Shown here: positions 34,611-45,174 of the stretch, piece by piece
Numbering within the stretch: the first letter of the stretch is position 1
Layout: each line of letters starts with the position of its first letter
DNA from: Methylococcus geothermalis
GTDB lineage: Bacteria > Pseudomonadota > Gammaproteobacteria > Methylococcales > Methylococcaceae
Length of the DNA stretch: 64,000 nt
NCBI RefSeq assembly: GCF_012769535.1
Contig: NZ_CP046565.1
Coordinates: 3,253,501 to 3,317,500, forward strand
Reading direction: 5' to 3'
Program-made: the position numbers and the translations under genes
Notes under the pieces: generated by a model
Database searches by the model: none
What the model was told of the DNA's origin: nothing
What the model saw: only the letters and a program-made list of their open reading frames with translations

Positions 34611-34811
34611 ATGGCCGCGATCGACGACATTCTGCCGCGTTACAAGCGTCATCTGTCGAACCTGAAAGACTCGCTGAAGCAGGACATCGACCGCGCGGCG
34701 CTGGCGGAAATCTTGGGAGGGATTGGGATCGTTCCCGAAGGGGACGCGATCTATGCCGAAAGGGACGAACCCGGCATGCACATTCTCACGCGCATGCCGA
34801 GCCGTATCTAG
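34611..34811 (+). CDS. Hypothetical protein (66 aa)
   Basis: A helical, charged frame that begins MAAIDDILPRYKRHLSNLKD and ends GMHILTRMPSRI. No domain recognised. It ends two bases before the proposed left attachment site, so it may be a truncated gene whose 3' part was displaced by the island. Confidence 0.35.
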   Translation: MAAIDDILPRYKRHLSNLKDSLKQDIDRAALAEILGGIGIVPEGDAIYAERDEPGMHILTRMPSRI

Positions 34812-34813
34812 AA

Positions 34814-34827
34814 TGGTAGCGGGGGCA
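34814..34827. other. Left attachment site (attL-like)
   Basis: The 14-base sequence matches 13 of 14 bases of the tRNA-fMet 3' end at 45098-45111. It lies exactly where the chromosomal context ends and element genes begin. The single mismatch (A for G) means that the repeat is imperfect or has drifted. Confidence 0.55.
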
Positions 34828-34891
34828 TCTACCGAACAACACGGCGTAAATGGCGCAGTTACTCGGGTTGTCGGCTGGATGCAGGATGAGT

Positions 34892-34910
34892 TACTGACAA
34901 AGTTACTGTC
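34892..34910 (+). promoter_or_regulatory. Integrase arm-type binding sites, left end
   Basis: GTTACTG occurs at 34890 and again within AAGTTACTGTC (34900-34910). The same 11-base word occurs at 44973-44983 near the integrase start, with further GTTACTG-like words there (GGTGTTACTGCC on the minus strand at 44935-44946). Repeats of one word near both ends of an integrative element are the usual pattern of arm-type integrase sites. Confidence 0.5.
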
Positions 34911-35008
34911 ATGGGAGTAGTGCTGCCTACTGACTAAGCAAAGCGATGCGAGATATAGCGAGGATTATTTGAGCATGGCAACGTCCAACAACGTATGGAG
35001 TTGCCCGA

Positions 35009-35239
35009 ATGCATCAACTTACCGAAACCGGCTTTCTGCGCATCCATCAGATCGTAGGAGATCGAAAAGCCAACCCTCCCATTCCCCCTATCATTCCTGT
35101 CTCCCGCTCAACCTGGTGGGCGGGCGTCAAAGACGGTAGATACCCCAAGCCTATAAAGATTGGGCCGCGCACCACCGTCTGGACCGTAGAAGACATCCGG
35201 GAGCTGGTAAACCGCATCCGGCGCGGGGAGTCAGCATGA
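35009..35239 (+). CDS. AlpA-family transcriptional regulator
   Basis: 76 residues with a winged helix-turn-helix of the AlpA/MerR type (LRIHQIV, VSRSTWWAGVKDGRYPKPIK, RTTVWTVEDIRELVNRI). AlpA proteins in P4-like elements activate excision or late genes. The stop overlaps the start of the replication gene by four bases. Confidence 0.88.
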   Translation: MHQLTETGFLRIHQIVGDRKANPPIPPIIPVSRSTWWAGVKDGRYPKPIKIGPRTTVWTVEDIRELVNRIRRGESA

Positions 35240-37737
35240 ATCAGGCGGTGGCGACGGTGAAGGCCGGGCGGTGGGTGAAGCCACGGTGGAGGGTTAAACA
35301 GTACCGCAGCCCATTTGAGGCGTATGTCCGCTATGGCGGGTGGCGTTTGTGTGAGATTAAACCTGGCACCAAGGCGCCGGCTGGAAAAGGCTGGAACCGG
35401 AGGGAGGCTGCGATCGACGATCCGGCGCGGGCTGGGCGGCTTGAGGCGGCTGGACTGCTGCACGCTTGGTCAGGCACGGCGGCCCTCGACGTGGATGACT
35501 TTGAGGAGGCGGACCGATGGCTTGAGGCACGCGGGATCAATTTGTCCGCGTTGCTGGGCTCGGGTGATGCAGTTCAGATCACCTCTGGCCGACCCGGCAA
35601 GGCGAAACTTCTCTACCGGCTGGCAGAGCCGAGGCCAAGTGTAAAAGTGGTAGACGATGCGGGCCAAGTGGTCTTGGAGCTGCGATGCGGCGCGGCTGGA
35701 GGACTTAGCGTACAGGATGTTTTGCCTCCTTCGGTCCATCCAGACACGGGTAACCCCTACGCCTGGGGCGGCTCAGGCAGGTGGTGGCGGCTGCCCGACA
35801 TGCCGGCGGCGCTGCTCAAAGTGTGGGACGAGCTGGCGGCGCCTTCGCACAGGCCGGATGAGGTCGCGAAGGCCGAGGCGGCGGCGGCGGTGCTGGATGC
35901 CGGGCAGCTTGCCGACCTGCGTGAGGCGCTTTTTTTTATACCAGCGGATGCATATGACACCTGGATCAAGATCGGCCTTGCCTTGGCCGGGCTGGGCGAT
36001 GCCGGGCGGGCGCTTTGGCTTGCCTGGTCTGCCACTTCGAGCAAGTTCGAGCCGGCGGCAGCCGCAAGAAAATGGGAGAGCTTCGCGGGCGCGGCGGCAG
36101 ATCATCGGGCTGTCTTTGCCGAGGCCGCGCGACGCGGGTGGACTAACCCAGCGAAGGAGCGGGCGGTGAGGGAGAGGCTGGCGGCGCAATCCTTGGCCGA
36201 GGCCGGCGGGCCGGCGGCGGCTGGCAAGCGCGAAGAGGTGCAGGCCGTTCCGGCGGTTGAAGTCGGAGGCGCGGGATGGCCGGAGCCGATGATACCGGAG
36301 GGCGTGGACGTTCCGAATATTCCGGACATTGTTTTACCGGGCTGGGTCGGCGCGATGGCCGAGGCGGTCTCGGTCAGTTGTCAGACGCCGAGCGCGGCTG
36401 CCGTCGCCGTGGCGCTGGCGGCGTTGGCGACTTGCTGTCAGAGGCGGTGGCAGGTGGCGCCGCACGCGTCTGGATATGTGGAGCCCCTCGCATTATGGAC
36501 TATAACCGCGATGCCGCCGGGCAGCCGCAAAAGCGCCGTGCTTGCGGCTTTGGCCGCGCCGTTGATCCGGTGGGAAAAACTTCAGAGGGATCGGCTTCGC
36601 CCCGAAATCGCCCGGCGGACAGCGGCGCGAGAAGTTGCGGCCAAAAGGATCGAGGGCTTGAAAAAGCGGGCGCTGCGGGTGGAGGACGCTGAGTCGCGGG
36701 CCGAGTTGGTCGCGGCGATCCAGTCGGAGTCTGAATTTATGCCGGCGGAGCTGATCCCCCCGCGCCTATTCACCGGAGACTGCACGCCGGAGAGGTTGCA
36801 GGGGCTTCTTGTGGAGCACGGGGAGGCGATGTCAGTGCTGAGCGACGAAGGCGGCATCTTCCAAGTTTTGTCGGGAGCATATTCCGGCGGGATGGCTAAT
36901 TTGGATGTGTTTTTGCAAGGGCACGCGGGCTCAGCCATGCGAGTAGACCGTGGCGGGCGGTGTGCCCACATAGATCGGCCGGCGCTAAGTTTGGGCCTGA
37001 TGATGCAGCCGGGCGTTCTGGCCGAGGTAGGCAAAAACAAAAGATTCAGGGACTCGGGATTGCTTGGCCGGTGCCTCTTTGTTGTGCCCAAGAGCAACGT
37101 TGGCGCGCGCGATGTTAGACAACACCTCGACGTGCCGGAGTACATCAAAGAGGACTGGGAGGCCGGGTTATTTCGGCTTCTGGATGGTCGCCTTGAGCCG
37201 GTGGAGGCGCCGAGGACGTTGATTTTTGGGCCAGAGGCGCGTGAGTGTTGGCTAAATTTCTCGGCTGAGATCGAGCGTAAGCAAGGCGACGGCGGGCCGC
37301 TGGGACATGTGGCCGACTGGTCGGCCAAGCTTCCTGGCGCCGTGGCTAGGATTGCAGGCTTGCTGCACCTTGCCACGCGCGGCGGCGCGGTGGAGGTGAT
37401 CGGGCGCGATGCGGTCGAGCGGGCGGTTGAGCTAGGCAAGCTTCTTATTCCTCACGCTCTCGCCGCGTTTGGGCTGATGGGGCGGGCGCCGGTTGAGGAC
37501 GACGCGCATGCGCTGTTGGCGTGGATTCGAGCCGGGCGGCGGCTGACGTTCACCGCCCGTGAAGCTCAGAGAGCGATGCGTGTTCGCTTCCCATCTCGCC
37601 CAAAGCTCGACCAGGCCCTTGCGTTTCTCGGCGATTGGAAAGTGGTGGTGGGTGCCCGGCAGACGGTGGCGGGTGGAGGGGCTGGCAGGCCCACAACCAC
37701 GTACATCGTAAATGAGCGGATTTTTGATGCAGCCTGA
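35236..37737 (+). CDS. DUF3987/YfjI-type replication protein (primase-helicase-like)
   Basis: 833 residues. The N-terminal 200 residues resemble a prim-pol-type domain (APAGKGWNRREAAIDDP, ALDVDDFEEADRWL, LLYRLAEPRP, PPSVHPDTGNPYAWGG). A primase-associated helical segment follows (ADAYDTWIKIGLALAGLG). The C-terminal 450 residues are DUF3987 (LWTITAMPPGSRKSAVLAAL, SDEGGIFQVLSGAYSGGMAN, DVFLQGHAGSAMRVDRGG, LGRCLFVVPKS). The Walker-like PPGSRKS suggests NTP binding. Such proteins replicate mobile elements; iterons begin four bases after the stop, so this is the likely initiator. Confidence 0.85.
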   Translation: MNQAVATVKAGRWVKPRWRVKQYRSPFEAYVRYGGWRLCEIKPGTKAPAGKGWNRREAAIDDPARAGRLEAAGLLHAWSGTAALDVDDFEEADRWLEARGINLSALLGSGDAVQITSGRPGKAKLLYRLAEPRPSVKVVDDAGQVVLELRCGAAGGLSVQDVLPPSVHPDTGNPYAWGGSGRWWRLPDMPAALLKVWDELAAPSHRPDEVAKAEAAAAVLDAGQLADLREALFFIPADAYDTWIKIGLALAGLGDAGRALWLAWSATSSKFEPAAAARKWESFAGAAADHRAVFAEAARRGWTNPAKERAVRERLAAQSLAEAGGPAAAGKREEVQAVPAVEVGGAGWPEPMIPEGVDVPNIPDIVLPGWVGAMAEAVSVSCQTPSAAAVAVALAALATCCQRRWQVAPHASGYVEPLALWTITAMPPGSRKSAVLAALAAPLIRWEKLQRDRLRPEIARRTAAREVAAKRIEGLKKRALRVEDAESRAELVAAIQSESEFMPAELIPPRLFTGDCTPERLQGLLVEHGEAMSVLSDEGGIFQVLSGAYSGGMANLDVFLQGHAGSAMRVDRGGRCAHIDRPALSLGLMMQPGVLAEVGKNKRFRDSGLLGRCLFVVPKSNVGARDVRQHLDVPEYIKEDWEAGLFRLLDGRLEPVEAPRTLIFGPEARECWLNFSAEIERKQGDGGPLGHVADWSAKLPGAVARIAGLLHLATRGGAVEVIGRDAVERAVELGKLLIPHALAAFGLMGRAPVEDDAHALLAWIRAGRRLTFTAREAQRAMRVRFPSRPKLDQALAFLGDWKVVVGARQTVAGGGAGRPTTTYIVNERIFDAA

Positions 37738-37740
37738 GCC

Positions 37741-38031
37741 GGAATTTTGTCCCACAGGCGGGCGGACACAATGGGACAAAATGCCAAAATTCGGCGGATT
37801 TTTAATTTTGTCCCATTCTGTCACCAAGGGTTTGGGACAAAATTCCGGCGATTTGCACACGATCGAACAACAATCGGGCGAATTTTGTCACACCGTCATT
37901 TTCGTCCTAAAGGTTTTTTTAACCTTAAAAATCATATACATACATGCAAAATGCGCATCCGGGCCGGAAATCGTGGGACAAAATGCCAAAATTCAAAAAG
38001 CGTGGCGGCGAATTTTGTCATTTTGTCCCAT
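37741..38031. repeat. Iteron array with AT-rich core, candidate replication origin
   Basis: At least seven copies of TGGGACAAAAT(T/G)C occur in both orientations: about 37741-37755(-), 37773-37790(+), 37804-37816(-), 37833-37847(+), 37880-37893(-), 37974-37994(+) and 38009-38031(-, two half units). Several extend into a shared CCGGCG or GGCGG flank. Between copies five and six lies an AT-rich segment (37898-37952) with the inverted repeat AAGGTT/AACCTT around five T residues. Iterons plus an AT-rich unwinding region directly after a replication gene are typical of an origin. They could also be operators. Confidence 0.75.
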
Positions 38032-38149
38032 GTCCTGGGGGTGAAGTTTGATTTTTGAGATTGGCCGGCGTAGTCCGGCCTTGGCGTCCGGCCATATGGC
38101 CGGGCGAGATCGTGCCGGGAGGCACAACAATCGCGATGGAGCGAAAACA

Positions 38150-38365
38150 ATGAGTGACAGAAATCATATACCGGAGCATTGCAGGGGCGACGAGACACAC
38201 CACGAGTGGCTCATGAGGTCGCCTAAATGGGTCCTCGTCATGGCCATCGAAACGAAGGAAATGTATCTTCACGTCCTCCTCGAAGACATTGGCAAACTTA
38301 AAACCCGTGTCGCCGAACTTGAGGCCGAGCTGTCCGATATAACGGGTGGTAATAAAAAGCAGTGA
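38150..38365 (+). CDS. Small coiled-coil protein (71 aa)
   Basis: It starts at ATG 38150 after GGAGCGAAAACA. The product has a His-rich start (MSDRNHIPEHCRGDETHHEW), a hydrophobic helix (KWVLVMAIETKEMYL) and a C-terminal coiled coil (IGKLKTRVAELEAELSDI). No family recognised. It is the first gene after the proposed origin. Confidence 0.6.
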   Translation: MSDRNHIPEHCRGDETHHEWLMRSPKWVLVMAIETKEMYLHVLLEDIGKLKTRVAELEAELSDITGGNKKQ

Positions 38366-38380
38366 TGTTATAACGTAACA
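38366..38380. promoter_or_regulatory. Palindromic operator-like site
   Basis: TGTTATAACGTAACA has inverted ends TGTTA/TAACA and an inner GTTATAAC palindrome. It lies in the 67-base gap before the gene at 38433 and may bind a dimeric regulator. No binding protein is identified. Confidence 0.35.
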
Positions 38381-38432
38381 TTTCCTAGTTTTGCGGAGGG
38401 GGGTTCCCTTCCGGCAACCATAAGGTGAAAAA

Positions 38433-38909
38433 ATGTCTGATGATTCAATCGTTTACAACGAAGAGCTGATCGAGGCCGACCTGGCCGACCTGCAGGAGCG
38501 TATCGAAGATGCTACCGCCGAACTGGCGGAGCGGGGTGAGCGGGTGCGGCAATGGGCGGCGGCGCTGAGCCCGTGCCTTCACACCGCCGACGGCATACAG
38601 CATCGGCTGTCCGTGGCGCGGCGGCGGCGGGGTGAGCTGCTGTTCAAATACTTTGAGTCCGGCGACGAGGCGATGAAGCATGAAATCGAGGCCCTGAGTG
38701 AGGAAATCAGGTTCATCCAAGACTGGAGCCCCGAATTCATTGGCCGTGTGCTGACGGAGCATGAAAAATGGGCCGCCCGCACGGAGCTATTCCGGTCTAG
38801 GTACGAGGATCGAGCGGCGGACCTCAAAGCCCGTCGTAACCTGGCGCCGGCGCATGTCCTGAGCCAGCGCGAAACGACGATGTACGGCCGTCCGATCCGG
38901 GCGGCTTGA
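38433..38909 (+). CDS. Coiled-coil hypothetical protein of the element (158 aa)
   Basis: A strongly helical, charged protein: LIEADLADLQERIEDATAEL, then basic RLSVARRRRGELLFKYFES, then RTELFRSRYEDRAADLKARR. It resembles small phage scaffolding- or accessory-type proteins, but no family is recognised. Cys and enzyme motifs are absent. It follows the palindromic site and is in the same direction as its neighbours. Confidence 0.65.
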   Translation: MSDDSIVYNEELIEADLADLQERIEDATAELAERGERVRQWAAALSPCLHTADGIQHRLSVARRRRGELLFKYFESGDEAMKHEIEALSEEIRFIQDWSPEFIGRVLTEHEKWAARTELFRSRYEDRAADLKARRNLAPAHVLSQRETTMYGRPIRAA

Positions 38910-38967
38910 TTCTACCCACACACCCTGCCCGATCCGGCGGGCAGGGCTTCCCGATGGCGAGGCTGGC

Positions 38968-39177
38968 ATGAAGACAGAGGTTATTGAGGCTATCCGGCTG
39001 CTCAAACACTCAAAGCAACTCGACCAGGCGGCGCAGGCGGCGCGGCGGGAGGCGGCGTGGCTTCTTGCAGCCTGCACCGAAAGGGATATATGCCATGCGG
39101 CGAAGCGCACAGGCTGGACGCCAACGGGTTTGATATGCCTGGCGAGGGCCGTAACGGGCACTCATATAGCTGATTGA
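38968..39177 (+). CDS. Hypothetical helical protein (69 aa)
   Basis: MKTEVIEAIRLLKHSKQLDQ starts the product, followed by Ala/Arg-rich helix (AAQAARREAAWLLAAC) and RTGWTPTGLICLARAVTG. The last half could be a small helix-turn-helix. Family unknown. The AGGCTGGC before ATG is a weak ribosome site. Confidence 0.5.
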   Translation: MKTEVIEAIRLLKHSKQLDQAAQAARREAAWLLAACTERDICHAAKRTGWTPTGLICLARAVTGTHIAD

Positions 39178-39205
39178 TCTAACAAACCATGATGGAGATA
39201 ACACG

Positions 39206-39880
39206 ATGGGCGGTGGTGGCGGGTCTTTGACCCCTCAGATTACGGCGCAGGAGCTGGAATACGCGAATGTGCTGCAGAATGTGCTGCAGTCGTCGAACGC
39301 GCTGACGGCGCCGGTGGAGAAGTTCGCGGTCCGCAACATGAAGGCGATGAACACGCCTCTGGCCTACGACGCGGCGGGCGGCCTGGGGCTGAGTTCGGCC
39401 TTGCAGCAGTGGGACCCGCTGCGGCAGCAGACGATGTACCAGACGATGGCCAGCGGTGCGGCGCCGGGCAGTGGGCGGTTCCTGGCCACCGAGACGCAGT
39501 TGGACCAGGCCAACGCGCAGGCACGGGCACGCGGGGCGATGCAGGGGCGCATGGGCAATCTGGATGCGCGGCTCGGGCTGATGAACGCGGCCATCGGCGC
39601 CGGGCGGCAGCGGCTGGGATCGGCGGTGGATACGTTCTCCAACCTTTCCAGGAAATCCAGCGACTGGGAGCGCAACCGGGCGGCGTTGGCGAGCGAGATG
39701 GAGGCGGACAACGCCAAGGGCATCGGCAAGATGGCCGGTATGGTGGGCGGCGCGGCGCTGGGGCTGATGACCGGCGGGCTGGGCTTCAGTCTGACGGGCG
39801 CGGCCTTGGCGTCGGCAGGGGCGACCGGGGCGGCCTTGGGCGGTAGCCTGGGTTCGGGCCTGGCCAGCGGGATGCGGTGA
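39206..39880 (+). CDS. Possible phage virion / DNA-ejection-type protein (224 aa)
   Basis: A Gly-rich start (MGGGGGSLTPQITAQELEYA) is followed by a long helical region (DQANAQARARGAMQGRMGNL) and a C-terminal Gly/Ala membrane-active stretch (MAGMVGGAALGLMTGGLGFS, then GATGAALGGSLGSGL). This overall design is like internal virion or ejection proteins of podovirus-type phages. No capsid or portal gene is nearby, so it may decorate a helper's particles or be a relic. Assignment rests on composition and layout only. Confidence 0.5.
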   Translation: MGGGGGSLTPQITAQELEYANVLQNVLQSSNALTAPVEKFAVRNMKAMNTPLAYDAAGGLGLSSALQQWDPLRQQTMYQTMASGAAPGSGRFLATETQLDQANAQARARGAMQGRMGNLDARLGLMNAAIGAGRQRLGSAVDTFSNLSRKSSDWERNRAALASEMEADNAKGIGKMAGMVGGAALGLMTGGLGFSLTGAALASAGATGAALGGSLGSGLASGMR

Positions 39881-39881
39881 T

Positions 39882-40081
39882 CTCGCGGTACTCGCCCCGC
39901 GAGTGGCGGCGGGAGGTATGGCGGACGCCGGCATGAATCCGACGTCCTTCCCAGATCCTCGCGGTACGTGCCCCGCGAGTGGCGTTTGTTTCCTCGCAGT
40001 ACTCGCCCCGCGAGTGGCGCTTGTTCGACCGTTCTCGACCAAGCCGTAAAACAGCTCGCAGTACTCGCCCCGCGAGTGGCG
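39882..40081. repeat. Cluster of four 27-bp palindromic repeats
   Basis: Copies lie at 39882-39908, 39958-39984, 39993-40019 and 40055-40081. The core ACTCGCCCCGCGAGT can fold as ACTCGC/GCGAGT with a CCC loop and is preceded by CTCGCrGT and followed by GGCG. The second copy differs (ACGTGCCCC). Single copies are at 42339-42365, 42496-42522 and, inverted, at 43711-43737. The repeats fill the gap between the virion-like gene and the antisense RNA locus. Confidence 0.85.
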
Positions 40082-40129
40082 TGACCTTATTGTAACCATA
40101 CGCCGGCGGGCTGTGCTACACTTTCAACT

Positions 40130-40352
40130 GTCCCCGGACGGTTCCGGGGCCGGGCGTGGAAACCCGATAGCACAAAGGCGCACCCTCGCGCCCTGACCGG
40201 CGCTTTTTTATGCCGGTCGGCTTCCCATGACGGGCGGTGCGAGGCACGGTACGTCCGTGGCCGGTTCCTTTGTGCCGGTTTTCCACCCTCGCATCGTCCG
40301 TCACCCTTGCACTGTGGAAAGTGCTGGTGACGGTTTCCAAGCAACACAAAGG
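40130..40352 (+). ncRNA. C4-like antisense RNA and its target leader
   Basis: The segment 40156-40178 contains GTGGAAA and GCACAAAGG. The segment 40267-40286 contains their complements CCTTTGTGC and TTTCCAC in the matching order, 90 bases downstream on the same strand. CCTTTGTG (40267-40274) is also complementary to CACAAAGG (40345-40352), which includes the ribosome site of the next gene. This is the layout of the C4 immunity RNA of phages P1/P7 and P4 relatives, where a processed antisense RNA and its target lie on one transcript. A hairpin GACCGGC/GCCGGTC (about 40195-40218) sits between. A possible -10 TACACT is at about 40115-40120. Confidence 0.6.
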
Positions 40353-40362
40353 AGCCAACACC

Positions 40363-40662
40363 ATGACATCCCCTACCACGGGCGCACACCGCCCGATCAT
40401 TTCCCTATCCCATGCGCATCGGCTCGATGGCGATGTGCGACGGCTTGCCGATGAGCTGGAACACCTGGCACTGATTTGCGATGACTGGGTAAACCAGTGC
40501 CACAAAACCGAAGCGCTGCGTGAAGTCGCCCGCTGCGTCCGGGCCGCCAGCCGGGCCATGTCCAAGGCCAAGAACCCGGCCAGACAAGTCTGGATCGAGG
40601 CGCACGCGGAGGAAGGTTCGGCCACGGTCACCGGCGACCAGGAGGAGCCCAGCCATGATTGA
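40363..40662 (+). CDS. Element protein under the C4-like leader (99 aa)
   Basis: ATG 40363 follows AAAGGAGCCAACACC, a strong ribosome site. The product begins MTSPTTGAHRPIISLSHAHR and has a helical middle (GDVRRLADELEHLALICDDW, then EALREVARCVRAASRAM). The frame is open upstream to 40237, giving a leader peptide-like region LALWKVLVTVSKQHKGANTM. Icd/Ash-type genes of P4-like elements show a similar layout, with translation through the antisense target. By position it may be an anti-immunity or host-targeting protein. Function unknown. Confidence 0.65.
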   Translation: MTSPTTGAHRPIISLSHAHRLDGDVRRLADELEHLALICDDWVNQCHKTEALREVARCVRAASRAMSKAKNPARQVWIEAHAEEGSATVTGDQEEPSHD

Positions 40663-40759
40663 GCAAATCAAAACGACCCTGGCGGCGCTGGGCATGGCCG
40701 ACGTGATTTTTTCCATTGCAAACATGCTGGCCGGCTGGCTGGCGGGAGGTGGACTATGA
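40655..40759 (+). CDS. 34-residue hydrophobic microprotein
   Basis: The frame reads MIEQIKTTLAALGMADVIFS followed by IANMLAGWLAGGGL. GGAGGAGCCC lies just upstream, the start overlaps the previous gene by eight bases, and the stop overlaps the next start (ATGA). Such tight packing argues for translation. It is probably a single membrane-associated helix. Confidence 0.55.
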   Translation: MIEQIKTTLAALGMADVIFSIANMLAGWLAGGGL

Positions 40760-41013
40760 AAGACGCGAACGCGGTTGAACGGATGAACGGGGCACTGCAA
40801 ACGGCAGGCATGGCGGCCCGATCGGTGGCGGCGGGGCTGGTGCTGCTGCGTATGAACCGCAGCGAAGACCCTGGGCTGAACGACGATGAGTACGAGGCGT
40901 TCTGCTGGAGTCTGGAGCAATCGGTCATGGAGGTGGCCGAGGTGCTGGATATGGCCATGCACATGCTACGCACCCAGGCCGAGGAGACGGCGCGTGACCC
41001 GGCGCAGCGGTAG
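40756..41013 (+). CDS. Hypothetical element protein (85 aa)
   Basis: An alpha-helical, acidic protein beginning MKDANAVERMNGALQTAGMA, with DDEYEAFCWSLEQSVMEVAE in the second half. No domain recognised. It overlaps the microprotein before it and the RepA-like gene after it (starting at 40994), so all belong to one operon led from the C4-like leader. Confidence 0.6.
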   Translation: MKDANAVERMNGALQTAGMAARSVAAGLVLLRMNRSEDPGLNDDEYEAFCWSLEQSVMEVAEVLDMAMHMLRTQAEETARDPAQR

Positions 41014-42196
41014 GCCGGTGGCGGTGGGGAACCTCGCGCTGCGGGTGGCCGAGATGGCGGCGCGGGCACGGGAGGCGCCGAGGCCTTCGGCTCCGCCGGT
41101 GACGCCGAGGCCTTCGGCTTCACCCGTGCCGCCCAGGCCTTCGGCTTCTTCGGTGGCGCAGTGTGGCCGGGTGACGCTGGGGGTGAACCTGTTGCAGGGC
41201 GCCAGCGTGCAGCCTGAGCCGGTCCGCTGGCTGTGGCCGGGCTGGCTGGCGAAAGGCAAGCTGCACGTCATCGCCGGGCAGCCCGGCACGGGCAAGACCA
41301 GTCTTGCGCTTTCCCTAGCGGCGACGCTGACGGCGGGCGGACGCTGGCCGGACGGCACGCCGGCGGCGCCGGGCAACGTGCTGATCTGGTCCGGCGAGGA
41401 CGACGTGAGGGATACCCTGATGCCGCGCCTTCTGTCCTGCGGGGCGGATCCGAAACGCTGCTTCTTCATCACCGACGTGCAGGCCGAAGACGGGCGGCGC
41501 CCGTTCGACCCAGCCCGCGACATGCCCGCCCTGCTGCGTGCGGCGCGGGAGGTGGGCGAGGTGCGGTTGCTGCTGGTCGATCCGATCGTGTCGGCGGTGG
41601 CGGCGGACAGCCACAAGAACGCCGAGGTGCGGCGCGGGCTGGCCCCGCTGGTGACGCTGGCCGAGCGTCTTGATTGCGCCTTGCTGGGCATCTCGCACTT
41701 CTCCAAGGGCTCGGCGGGCCGTGATCCGCTGGAGCGGGTGACCGGTTCGCTGGCGTTCGGGGCGCTGGCCCGGATCGTGTTCGCGGCCTTCAAGCGCTCG
41801 GAGGAGGACGGCGGCGGTCGCTGCCTGGCGCGGGTGAAGTCGAACCTCGGGCCGGACGAGGGCGGCTTTCTCTACGAGCTGGTTCTCGATGCGCTGGCCG
41901 AGCACCCAGGCGTGACGGCGACACGGGTCGACTGGGGCACGGCGGTAGCCGGTTCGGCAAGGGCGCTGCTGGCGCGTGCGGAGGCCGCGTGTGATCCGGA
42001 AGCCATGTCGGCGCTGGACGAAGCCTGCGCGTTTCTTCAGGAGCTGTTGGCGGCTGGGCCTGTGGCGGCGGCGGAAGTGAAGATGGAGGCCGAGGCGGCG
42101 GGTGTTTCGGAAAGGACGCTGAAACGAGCAAGGAAGAAACTGGCGCTGACCGTGACCAAAACAGGCATGGAGGGCGGCTGGGTCTGGGCTCTGTAA
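40994..42196 (+). CDS. RepA-like hexameric helicase / AAA ATPase
   Basis: About 400 residues from GTG 40994, which has GGAG seven bases upstream. An Ala/Pro-rich repeat-like linker (RPSAPPVTPRPSASPVPPRP) precedes a RecA-fold ATPase: Walker A in IAGQPGTGKTSLALSLA, GNVLIWSGEDDVRDTL, Walker B in VRLLLVDPIVSAV, and the sensor motif ALLGISHFSKGSAGRDPLERV. This is the RSF1010 RepA-type helicase family. A C-terminal winged-helix-like region (AGVSERTLKRARKKLAL) may bind DNA. A second iteron-like array begins 19 bases after its stop. Confidence 0.88.
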   Translation: MTRRSGRPVAVGNLALRVAEMAARAREAPRPSAPPVTPRPSASPVPPRPSASSVAQCGRVTLGVNLLQGASVQPEPVRWLWPGWLAKGKLHVIAGQPGTGKTSLALSLAATLTAGGRWPDGTPAAPGNVLIWSGEDDVRDTLMPRLLSCGADPKRCFFITDVQAEDGRRPFDPARDMPALLRAAREVGEVRLLLVDPIVSAVAADSHKNAEVRRGLAPLVTLAERLDCALLGISHFSKGSAGRDPLERVTGSLAFGALARIVFAAFKRSEEDGGGRCLARVKSNLGPDEGGFLYELVLDALAEHPGVTATRVDWGTAVAGSARALLARAEAACDPEAMSALDEACAFLQELLAAGPVAAAEVKMEAEAAGVSERTLKRARKKLALTVTKTGMEGGWVWAL

Positions 42197-42214
42197 CCCA
42201 AAGGGGGCCAAGAC

Positions 42215-42298
42215 TTGGCACTCTTCGAAGGGTGCCAAATATCCCGAAGGGTGCCAAACATTTGCTTGGCACTCTTCGGCGGTGTTTGGCCCTCTTCG
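42215..42298. repeat. Second iteron-like array after the helicase gene
   Basis: Five copies of the 13-base word TTGGCACTCTTCG or its near-complement CGAAGGGTGCCAA occur at 42215-42227(+), 42226-42238(-), 42245-42257(-), 42265-42277(+) and 42286-42298(+, with CCC for CAC). The first two overlap to form a near-perfect palindrome. The word is unrelated to the first iteron set. It could be a helicase-loading or replication control site, or an operator cluster. Confidence 0.7.
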
Positions 42299-42338
42299 TC
42301 GGCTTCGGAAAGGACTCCATCTCCTTGTGGGGTCTTCG

Positions 42339-42650
42339 CTCGCAGTACTCGCCCCGCGAGTGGCGTGCCGACATTTTACCCATAGGGCGCCACACCCCAA
42401 ACGGTCCAATCACCCGGCTGTGGCCGTGACGCGATGCAGGCCGGCGGTGGGCTGGACCTCCAGCCGTGGCCGACATCCAGGCCGTGCCTGATCCTCTCGC
42501 AGTACTCGCCCCGCGAGTGGCGTGATTTCATTTTACCCATTAGGCGCCACACCTCAAACGGTCCAATCATTCGACGGTGCCGGCGCTGGCGGCGGGCTGG
42601 ACCTCCAGCCTTGGCCGACCTCCAGCCCGTGCCGGGCCCCGAGGCCTTGG
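42339..42650. repeat. Segmental duplication of about 155 bp, each copy led by the palindromic repeat
   Basis: The block 42339-42495 is repeated at 42496-42650. Both start with the 27-bp palindromic repeat, continue with ATTTTACCCAT, GGCGCCACAC and AAACGGTCCAATCA, and end in a GGGCTGGACCTCCAGCC segment that leads into the 36-bp minisatellite. The copies differ by scattered substitutions, so the duplication is not recent. Confidence 0.75.
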
Positions 42651-42934
42651 CCGACCTCCAGGCCGTGCCGGGCCCCGAGGCCTTGGCCGACCTCCAACCC
42701 GTGCCGGGCCCCGAGGCGGTGGCCGACCTCCAGGCCGTGCCGGGCCCCGAGGCGGTGGCCGACCTCCAGCCCGTGCCGGGCCCCGAGGCGGTGGCCGACC
42801 TCCAGGCCGTGCCGGGCCCCGAGGCGGTGGCCGACCTCCAGGCCGTGCCGGGCCCCGAGGCGGTGGCCGACCCCCAGGCCGTGCCGGGCCCCGAGGCGGT
42901 GGCCGACCTCCAGGCCGTGCCGGGCCCCGAGGCC
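42611..42934. repeat. Nine tandem 36-bp units (minisatellite)
   Basis: Exact 36-bp period from 42611 to 42934, with the shared core GACCTCCAGGCCGTGCC and a GGGCCCCGAGGC end. Units vary at the start (TTGG or GTGG) and at one internal position (CAGCCC, CAGGCC or CAACCC). Because 36 is a multiple of three, all frames stay open; one would encode ADLQAVPGPEAV repeats. I regard it as noncoding. It lies just before the res-like region of the resolvase. Confidence 0.9.
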
Positions 42935-42974
42935 TTCGCCGATCCTTTCCCGAGTCTATCATTTTGTATACACA

Positions 42975-43082
42975 TGATAGACGTGATAGACCGGGCTGGA
43001 AGCCGCATTTCACCGTCGATCAAAAGTTTGTTTTTCGACTTTTGATAGACAGATGGAAACTCTTTTAAGACTTATGATAGAC
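42975..43082. other. res-like recombination site of the resolvase
   Basis: TGATAGAC occurs four times (42975, 42984, 43043, 43075). GTCGATCAAAAG (43015-43026) and CTTTTGATAGAC (43039-43050) form a 12-12-12 dyad with one mismatch, the size of a resolvase subsite. The region is AT-rich relative to its surroundings and ends 42 bases before the resolvase start. This arrangement matches res sites where the enzyme also represses its own gene. Confidence 0.6.
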
Positions 43083-43124
43083 TTATGATCGTGTTCCATT
43101 CGTCATTTTTGGGAGGTCGTCATC

Positions 43125-43700
43125 ATGAAGCACCAGGTGGTGGGTTACATCCGGGTCAGCTCGGTAGGACAGAACACGGACCGGCAATTGGCGGGCGTGG
43201 CGCTGGATCGGGTCTTCGAGGAGAAGGCGAGCGCGAAGACCGTCACGGCCCGGCCCGTGCTGGCGGAATGCCTGGCCTACGTGCGGGCCGGGGATACGCT
43301 GGTCTGCCATTCATTGGACCGGCTGGCGCGGAACACGGCGGAGCTGTTGGGCTTGGTCCGGGAGATCACGGGTAAGGGCGTGACGGTCCGGTTTCTGAAG
43401 GAGAACCTCACCTTTTCAGGGTCCGACGATGACCCGTTCAAGAATCTGATGCTGAGCATGCTAGCCGCGTTCGGCCAGTTCGAGCGGGAGCTGATCAACG
43501 AGCGGCGGCGCGAAGGCGTGGCGGCGGCACGGGCGCGGGGTCGGAAGTTCGGGGCGCCGGCCAAGCTGACCCCGGAGCTGTGCGCGAAGATCGACGCGCT
43601 TTTGGCGTCCGGGGCCAGTAAGAGGACGACGGCAAGGGCGGTCGGGATTGGGGAGGCTACTCTTTATAGGTATCTGCACGTCGCGGCCACAGCCGGATGA
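43125..43700 (+). CDS. Serine recombinase (resolvase/invertase family)
   Basis: 191 residues. The catalytic Ser is in GYIRVSSVGQNTDRQL; the Arg residues of the active site are in SLDRLARNTAELL. The E-helix (DPFKNLMLSMLAAFGQFERELINERRREG) and a C-terminal helix-turn-helix (SKRTTARAVGIGEATLYRYL) complete the fold. It probably resolves multimers of the excised, replicating element at the res-like site upstream, which would explain its presence beside replication genes. Confidence 0.92.
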   Translation: MKHQVVGYIRVSSVGQNTDRQLAGVALDRVFEEKASAKTVTARPVLAECLAYVRAGDTLVCHSLDRLARNTAELLGLVREITGKGVTVRFLKENLTFSGSDDDPFKNLMLSMLAAFGQFERELINERRREGVAAARARGRKFGAPAKLTPELCAKIDALLASGASKRTTARAVGIGEATLYRYLHVAATAG

Positions 43701-43707
43701 AATGAAA

Positions 43708-44934
43708 TCACGCCGCTCGCGGGGCGAGTACCGCGAGGCGGCCCGCGTCCTTTTTCAGCCCGTCCAGGTAATCTGCCCATGCCTGCATCATCTTCCGGCG
43801 TTCGGGCAGGTGCGCCGTGCGGTTATAGGCTCGCCCGTTGGGATCGCGCACGGCATGCGCTAACTGATGCTCGATGTAATCGGGCCGGAATCCAAGTACT
43901 TCATCCAGCACGGTACGCGCCAGCGCCCGGAAGCCGTGAACGGTCATTTCGTCCTTGCCGAACCCCATGCGCCGCAGTGCGGCCAGCAGGGCCACGTCAG
44001 ACATGGGCCGGGAACCGTTCGGTGTTCTCGCGGAAGGGAACACATAGCGCCCGCGTCCGGTCAGCGCATAAAGCGCACGCAGGATGTCCACGGCTTGGGT
44101 TGCCAGGGGAACGATGTGCGGCGTGCCGGTCTTGGTCACGGTGTAGCGCCATTCTGCCGCGTTCAGGTCGATATGTGCCCATTCCGCTTTCCGTAGCTCG
44201 CCAGGGCGCACAAACACCAGCGGGGCCAGCTTCAAGGCGCATTGCACAGTGAACGTTCCCTGGTAGGCGTCAATCGCTCGCAGCAATTCCGCCGCGCGTG
44301 ATGGTTCGGTCATGGCCGCGAAATTCCCGCCCTTCACCGGCGGAAGCGCCCCTTTCAGATCGCCGGAAGGATCACGGTCCGCCCTTCCGGTCGCCACGGC
44401 ATAGCGGAAAATCTGGCCGCAGTTCTGCAATGCCCGGTGCGCCGTTTCCACCGCGCCACGCGCTTCGATTCGCCGCAGCGCCGCCAACAATTCGGTGGCG
44501 TTGATTTCGGCGATTGGCCGCCCGCCCAGCCAGGGGAAAATATCCCGCTCCAGCCGGCGAATAATCCGGTCGCCGTGGCTCCCTGCCCAGGAAGGTGCTT
44601 GCTTGGCGTACCACTCCCGCGCCACCACTTCAAAGCTGTTCGCGGATCGGTCGGCTTGCGCCGCCTTCATCGCCTTGCGGCTCTCGCCGGGGTCGACGCC
44701 TTGGGCGATTTGCCTCCGGGCTTGGTCGCGCCGTTCGCGGGCATCCTTCAGGCTCACTTCAGGGTAAGTTCCCATAGAAAGAGTCTTGCGCTTGCCGTCA
44801 AACCGGTAATCCAGCCTCCACCACTTACCTCCAGAAGGCACGATGAGCAGGTACAGACCTTTTTCGTCGGATAGCCTGGAATTCTTGTCGCCTCTGGGTT
44901 TGGCGTTGCGGATTACGGCATCGGTCAGCGGCAT
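43708..44934 (-). CDS. P4-type tyrosine integrase
   Basis: 408 residues. The N-terminal arm-binding domain is typical (LTDAVIRNAKPRGDKNSRLS, LYLLIVPSGGKWWRLDYRF, KTLSMGTYPEVSLKDARERR). The catalytic residues are visible as Arg in FVRPGELRKAEW, His/Arg in VHGFRALARTVL, His in EHQLAHAV, and Tyr in GRAYNRTAHL. The gene starts about 165 bases from the tRNA-fMet and runs away from it, the standard layout. Its last residues (LAVLAPRAA) are encoded by a copy of the 27-bp palindromic repeat, so the C-terminus appears to have been replaced or extended by repeat DNA. Confidence 0.94.
   Translation of the reverse strand: MPLTDAVIRNAKPRGDKNSRLSDEKGLYLLIVPSGGKWWRLDYRFDGKRKTLSMGTYPEVSLKDARERRDQARRQIAQGVDPGESRKAMKAAQADRSANSFEVVAREWYAKQAPSWAGSHGDRIIRRLERDIFPWLGGRPIAEINATELLAALRRIEARGAVETAHRALQNCGQIFRYAVATGRADRDPSGDLKGALPPVKGGNFAAMTEPSRAAELLRAIDAYQGTFTVQCALKLAPLVFVRPGELRKAEWAHIDLNAAEWRYTVTKTGTPHIVPLATQAVDILRALYALTGRGRYVFPSARTPNGSRPMSDVALLAALRRMGFGKDEMTVHGFRALARTVLDEVLGFRPDYIEHQLAHAVRDPNGRAYNRTAHLPERRKMMQAWADYLDGLKKDAGRLAVLAPRAA
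43711..43737 (-). repeat. Palindromic repeat copy forming the integrase 3' end
   Basis: This inverted copy of the 27-bp repeat has one change (GCTCGC for ACTCGC). Its flank AAATGAAATCACGCC matches the flank of the copy at 42496 (GGCGTGATTTCATTT), showing that they descend from a longer shared block. It codes for the last residues of the integrase. Confidence 0.8.
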
Positions 44935-44983
44935 GGCAGTAACACCTATGGCTGTTGGTGTGGCTACTGTCGAAGTTACTGTC
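44934..44983. promoter_or_regulatory. Integrase arm-type binding sites, right end
   Basis: AAGTTACTGTC (44973-44983) repeats the left-end word exactly. Related words are GCTACTGTC just before it and GGTGTTACTGCC (minus strand, 44935-44946). They overlap the integrase start region, so the integrase may also repress its own gene. Confidence 0.5.
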
Positions 44984-45038
44984 TTTTGACGGTAGATGTT
45001 GCGGGACGGTATGCGACAACACTGGACGGAGTATAAAC

Positions 45039-45063
45039 GAAAAAGCCCGCGTGGCGCGGGCTT
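45039..45063 (-). terminator. Intrinsic terminator downstream of tRNA-fMet
   Basis: On the minus strand GCCCGCG and CGCGGGC (45045-45051 and 45055-45061) form a 7-bp stem with a 3-base loop followed by five T residues. It would end the tRNA transcript. It lies inside the proposed element boundary and so may have been brought in with it. Confidence 0.8.
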
Positions 45064-45097
45064 CGTGGGCTATATCGGTTGTTGCTGGATGGTTGAT

Positions 45098-45174
<77 letters not shown>

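Follow-up and report, generated by a model that had tools for sequence, protein, structure and literature searches.

In the tested origins of PICIs and SaPIs, an AT-rich region lies between two sets of iterons, immediately 3' to the rep gene (PMC6092414, PMC7581432), and an origin with such a layout has been proven functional in Gram-negative PICIs (PMC6092414). In SaPI Rep and in Cch2 of SCC, the C-terminal domain recognizes short repeats located directly downstream of the respective gene (PMC7581432). The prim gene of PICMI115 is required for full replication (PMC10803314), and Kazlauskas et al. predicted that DUF3987 represents a family of helicases found in mobile elements (PMC5862659); iterons are not mentioned in either of these two papers. 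Among the papers outside subscription journals that name DUF3987, none is about origins, judging by title or abstract. DUF3987 (YfjI) is a widespread domain of 'unknown function' in satellites, prophages and integrative elements.

Here we analyze an array of short repeated words at positions 37741-38031 of a 64-kb stretch of the Methylococcus geothermalis chromosome (hereafter, the window). Very probably, the array serves an integrative element of 10.3 kb as its replication origin; the element would replicate with its own PrimPol-DUF3987 initiator. As in SaPIs and PICIs (initiators Rep and Pri-Rep), the array is located directly 3' of the initiator gene, and int, alpA and a primase are encoded in the element (PMC6092414); unlike in these systems, the initiator is a DUF3987 protein (PF13148) and the inverted tandem sets step by 9 bp (8 bp in the window). 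The design shared with Cch and Cch2 of SCCmec consists of a replicative helicase, a C-terminal DNA-binding domain and short repeats just downstream (PMC7581432), with the binding being predicted in our case. However, the domains are DUF927 in Cch and a Primase_Cterm/D5-type domain in Cch2, neither protein has DUF3987, and the Cch2 repeats, AAGTG direct repeats within 23 bp, are unlike the window array. PICMI satellites carry the same trio of genes, int, alpA and a DUF3987/DUF5906 primase, but differ in the host, in the attachment site (fis rather than tRNA-Met) and in that no iterons are reported for them (PMC10803314). The gene order is also the same in CP4-57 of E. coli K-12 (intA-alpA-yfjI), which encodes a DUF3987 protein; yfjI, unlike the window gene, lacks a downstream array, and the C-terminus of its product is divergent.

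The integrated element

The array belongs to an integrated element (34814-45111) with attachment sites in tRNA-Met, an AlpA gene, an integrase gene and a C4 antisense RNA; int, alpA and the primase, the gene trio of PICIs and PICMIs, are thus found together in one att-flanked element. The two attachment sites are 14 bp long and differ by a single mismatch: TGGTAGCGGGGGCA at the left end (34814-34827) and TGGTGGCGGGGGCA at the right end (45098-45111), the latter in the 3' end of the tRNA-Met gene. In five congeners, the 3' end of tRNA-Met contains the left, chromosomal version, and similarity to the window stops at 45097, which fits insertion of the element 34814-45111. As the congeners do not share the left flank, the left border is placed solely by the att repeat.

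A gene for an AlpA-family regulator or excisionase (35009-35239, plus strand) overlaps the start of the initiator gene by 4 bp. Downstream of the array are a gene for a 224-aa protein of the function-unassigned family PHROG 611 (39206-39880); a C4 antisense RNA (Rfam RF01695, 68 bits; 40223-40308, plus strand), as in P1/P4-type immunity, located upstream of the gene for an AAA_25 (RepA/DnaB-like) ATPase (40886-42196, plus strand); a serine resolvase/invertase gene (43125-43700, plus strand); and a tyrosine integrase gene (43708-44934, minus strand). The element of the congener G011 has the same replication genes, the array, the phrog_611 gene, here next to that for a PHROG 596 protein, the AAA ATPase gene and the C4 RNA. 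C4 RNA was also detected at two other loci, L021 (15227-15310) and L026 (6168-6250), in the latter upstream of a DUF3987 gene. On the basis of the C4 and int-alpA RNAs found in relatives, these elements group with those of the P4/PICI-like type.

The putative initiator protein

The putative initiator gene (35236-37737, plus strand) encodes an 833-aa protein consisting of PrimPol, PriCT_2, DUF3987 (an MCM-like AAA+ domain) and a C-terminal winged helix. The match to DUF3987 (PF13148) scores 314 bits against a Pfam cut-off of 27 and covers positions 1-363 of the 364 in the model; this is the only DUF3987 gene in the whole genome. Two other assignments were rejected. A Rep_3 iteron plasmid replicon does not fit, the gene matching only Prim-Pol, PriCT_2 and DUF3987 in Pfam; the term 'iteron' of the initial annotation is kept here with the qualification that the array is not a Rep_3-type plasmid origin. 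For a P4-type origin, an alpha-type initiator with a D5/poxvirus-like helicase domain would be expected; the helicase domain here is DUF3987 in Pfam.

In sequence comparisons with solved structures, the DUF3987 helicase showed no detectable relation. The AlphaFold2 model of the DUF3987 region is confident (pLDDT 91.5), with a winged helix at the C-terminus, and the structures most similar to the predicted core are MCM helicases (best match 6mii_B, Z 17.9, rmsd 3.7 over 273 residues). For the predicted winged helix alone, its counterpart in MCM4 is the nearest match (Z 9.1, rmsd 1.8 over 68 residues), with many winged helices scoring close. The archaeal and eukaryotic MCM helicases are therefore matched, by prediction, in the same order of AAA+ domain and winged helix, but the window protein differs in having a fused N-terminal primase and a winged helix that seems to read sequence. 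The winged helix is encoded by 37474-37734 (plus strand) and is proposed, from the predicted fold and the covariation described below, to be the iteron-binding domain. By the same two lines of evidence, the initiator helicase is predicted to possess a C-terminal dsDNA-binding domain as in PICIs and SaPIs.

Organization of the array

The initial annotation had placed the repeated words directly after the replication gene, and its boundaries, 37741-38031, are correct: the initiator gene ends at 37737 (stop codon 37735-37737), the array begins 3 bp further, and the first iteron is at 37744. Exact copies of the iteron TGGGACAAAAT are present at 37744-37754 (minus strand), 37772-37782 (plus), 37805-37815 (minus), 37833-37843 (plus), 37974-37984 (plus) and 38020-38030 (minus), and the variant TGTGACAAAAT, with one mismatch, at 37882-37892 (minus). 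Hence, four copies are on the minus strand and three on the plus strand. The initial annotation counted seven or more words in both orientations; both orientations are indeed represented, but the exact copies number six, the seventh being the variant, and a higher count is reached if half-units are included. Such partial iterons lie in register, 8 bp away, at 37783 (GCCAAAATTC, so that the plus-strand pair spans 37772-37792), at 37985 (GCCAAAAT) and at 38012-38019 on the minus strand (GACAAAAT). The last two extend the exact copies into an inverted pair, with the left arm TGGGACAAAATGCCAAAATTC at 37974-37994 (plus) and the right arm TGGGACAAAATGACAAAATTC, comprising two units, at 38010-38030 (minus).

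Counting copies with at most one mismatch, the region has seven, whereas 2000 dinucleotide shuffles of it averaged 0.04 and never exceeded 2. The entire genome of 3,371,031 bp contains seven exact copies of TGGGACAAAAT, six of them in this array and the seventh inside a chromosomal gene (C1:3016), and no copies of the reversed control word. Comparison of the array DNA with plasmids by sequence similarity yielded chance matches only.

Five iteron copies precede and two (plus half units) follow an AT-rich core (37894-37953), the likely melting region, which is partly conserved in G011 and G014. In computed stability, the core ranks third from the bottom among the 60-bp stretches of the 64-kb window (-69.6 kcal/mol, compared to a mean of -92.0 and sd of 6.0), and it includes an inverted repeat with 6-bp arms, AAGGTT-TTTTT-AACCTT (37910-37926); both the AT-rich core and the short inverted repeat were thus correctly recognized at the outset.

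The inverted copies raise the question of whether the repeats act as RNA, either terminating transcription of the initiator operon or giving it a structured 3' UTR. The array RNA folds far better than shuffled sequences (z -7.1), and there is one weak terminator-like site at 38020-38047. The fold strength, however, results from the inverted copies; a hairpin requires neither tandem 9-bp direct repeats nor isolated single copies; terminator-like sites occur close to chance (6 vs 4.0 +/- 2.2); and it is a DNA-binding domain with which the word covaries, all of which makes a role as RNA highly improbable.

Arrays downstream of DUF3987 genes in other genomes and viruses

Using alignment-based searches, we identified 80 loci from genomes and 16 from viruses as relatives. 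The single window protein as a query produced no matches against the genome contigs or viral contigs, so that an alignment query was needed, and a class-wide genome sample added no further relatives. An array was scored as one locus-specific 9-mer repeated on both strands within the 465 bp past the DUF3987 stop codon. At least five copies were found at 60 of the 96 loci and at least six at 42, whereas in eight other intervals of the same loci, taken as controls, at least six copies were present in 0-4 of 82-102 and at least five in 5-19%. The remaining 36 of the 96 relatives have no clear array by the five-copy criterion, and none follows the YfjI gene of E. coli K-12. Among the same-strand spacings below 40 bp, 162 of about 200 are exactly 9 bp.

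Relatives from the same family have their own words after the stop codon: TACACAAAACC (G011 and G014), TCGACAAAACC (G017), TTCACAAAACC (G004), GGGAAAAAA (G025) and GATAAAAAT (G027). In G011 and G014, the word has changed and the AT-rich core is partly retained (CCTTAAAGGTTTTTTTAAC vs CCTAAAGGTTTTTTTAACC). The typical betaproteobacterial layout consists of single sites near the stop codon, an AT-rich core, tandem 9-bp units, a spacer and the same units inverted. In a circular 18.5-kb Streptomyces plasmid, an array of TGACAGAA(CC) lies exactly in the 300 bp that separate the YfjI/DUF3987 gene from the one following it. Arrays follow genes for DUF3987 proteins with a PrimPol, with a RepB_primase or with no recognized primase part, which indicates that they go with the helicase and the winged helix regardless of the N-terminal part. 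At many betaproteobacterial loci (L047-L086), an iteron resembling TTTTGTCGACA extends over the 3' terminus of the DUF3987 gene, so that its final codons spell ...LST or ...LSS.

Centromeres, too, can be iteron arrays next to the gene of a DNA-binding protein, and the array might accordingly serve as a partition or packaging site of the element instead of an origin. We consider this very unlikely, given that the nine element proteins scanned include none with a ParA, ParB, ParR or small-terminase family as its main match and that the array position after the primase-helicase gene is conserved across phyla.

A search of viral contigs by array pattern alone returned mostly chance stretches, with 1 of 120, 1 of 94 and 1 of 16 located no more than 700 bp past a DUF3987 stop codon. 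Some viral contigs contain similar GTGACAAAA arrays without an adjoining DUF3987 gene. Arrays of this kind that are inverted, have an AT-rich core and are not placed directly behind a DUF3987 gene were observed in L373 (2812-2916), L380 (1756-1860), L388 (3940-4044), L385 (11458-11622; about 0.7 kb upstream of a DUF3987 gene) and L384 (4961; 182 bp past a VapE-like primase-helicase gene). The presence of GTGACAAAA arrays away from DUF3987, one of them after a VapE-like gene, suggests that the layout is probably common to other initiator families.

Covariation of the iteron with the winged helix

The word sequence varies by lineage and tracks the C-terminal winged helix of the DUF3987 protein. 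To quantify this relationship, 53 arrays with clean 9-bp tandems were collected and their iterons aligned by their own sequence, without the use of the protein, and the nine iteron positions were scanned against about 430 protein columns across 38 non-redundant loci. The top pair combines iteron base 3 with column 423, which corresponds to residue 775 of the window protein (z 15.4; next pair, 10.6); the same column also ranked first in an earlier, label-based scan. The winged-helix domain is overrepresented among the top 1% of pairs (16 of 39, with about 7 expected).

This set was then extended to 69 loci, by addition of 16 loci and correction of one, with the registers set by hand. Base 3 is C with Arg at residue 775 in 48 loci, A with a residue other than Arg (Ser, Pro, Thr, Gln or Gly) in 18, and C with a residue other than Arg in three (L061, L081 and L125, the exceptions to the rule); A never occurs with Arg, so that 66 of the 69 loci fit. 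The window protein has Arg775 (codon 37558-37560, plus strand), and its word has the C (GACAAAAT). On a tree built from the helicase only, base 3 changed at least eight times. All five supported independent pairs agree; the sign test gives p = 0.0625, the smallest value that five pairs allow, because few supported switches exist. In the predicted model, residue 775 sits where helix 2 of the winged helix begins, outside the canonical recognition helix. Judging from the sequence covariation, residue 775 would contact base pair 3 of the iteron. We found no description of such base-residue covariation in the literature searched.

These observations bear on the identity of the binding protein. The initial annotation had named either the DUF3987 protein or AlpA, and the covariation with the winged helix favors the former. 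The best reading of the sequences is that the origin would be bound by the DUF3987 protein itself and not by AlpA. The array could, in principle, be a group of operators through which AlpA or the initiator, as a transcriptional regulator, controls the downstream genes, with no role as an origin: the AlpA gene is in the same operon as the initiator gene, plus-strand genes begin about 120 bp downstream of the array, and initiators often autoregulate. Yet the array is 3' of the gene, contains an unstable AT core and has a word that tracks the DUF3987 winged helix, and a search of 34800-38500 for sigma-70-like promoters, the only type sought, found none. A purely regulatory function is hence quite unlikely.

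A model for origin recognition

The PICI/SaPI-like anatomy, the recurrence of arrays after DUF3987 genes and the covariation of the iteron with the winged helix together make an origin, as proposed in the initial annotation, the best-supported reading of the array. In the mechanism that we envisage, the element-encoded PrimPol-DUF3987 protein would act as the initiator, with its C-terminal winged helix binding the words that flank the AT-rich core on either side, as the covariation suggests. By analogy with SaPI Rep and SCC Cch2, the MCM-like AAA+ part may assemble as one ring or as two opposed rings, upon which the AT-rich core would melt and the fused PrimPol domain would prime synthesis. 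The origin and the initiator would coevolve as a matched pair, which could explain why each lineage has its own word; the lineage-specific words probably keep the replicons from cross-reacting.

The class of origin is already known, and its DUF3987 version, with the residue-base covariation, appears to be new. On balance, the data lean towards DUF3987 initiators being an MCM-like family of self-recognizing starters, in which the winged helix has a readable 9-bp iteron code, with residue 775 setting base 3. If this recognition code holds, origin words would be predictable from the protein sequence and would have switched repeatedly in evolution. DUF3987 would then have a concrete job, that of an origin-specific initiator helicase, with origins that can be found by sequence and one residue-base pair that is open to direct testing. 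Fast and repeated change of origin specificity also bears on how mobile elements avoid mutual interference.

Other repeats in and near the element

Several additional repeats were observed. GTTACTG/GTTACTGTC repeats are located near both ends of the element (34890-34910 and 44965-44983) and are possibly arm-type integrase sites. A tandem array inside the element, at 42612-42933, consists of about nine copies of a 36-bp unit with 96% matches, and an interspersed repeat, CGCCACTCGCGGGGCGAG, flanks element genes in five copies (39891, 40002, 40064, 42348 and 42505). Outside the element, starting 46 bp past tRNA-Met, the segment 45221-45320 is repeated multiple times in the genome and is apparently the end of an insertion sequence.
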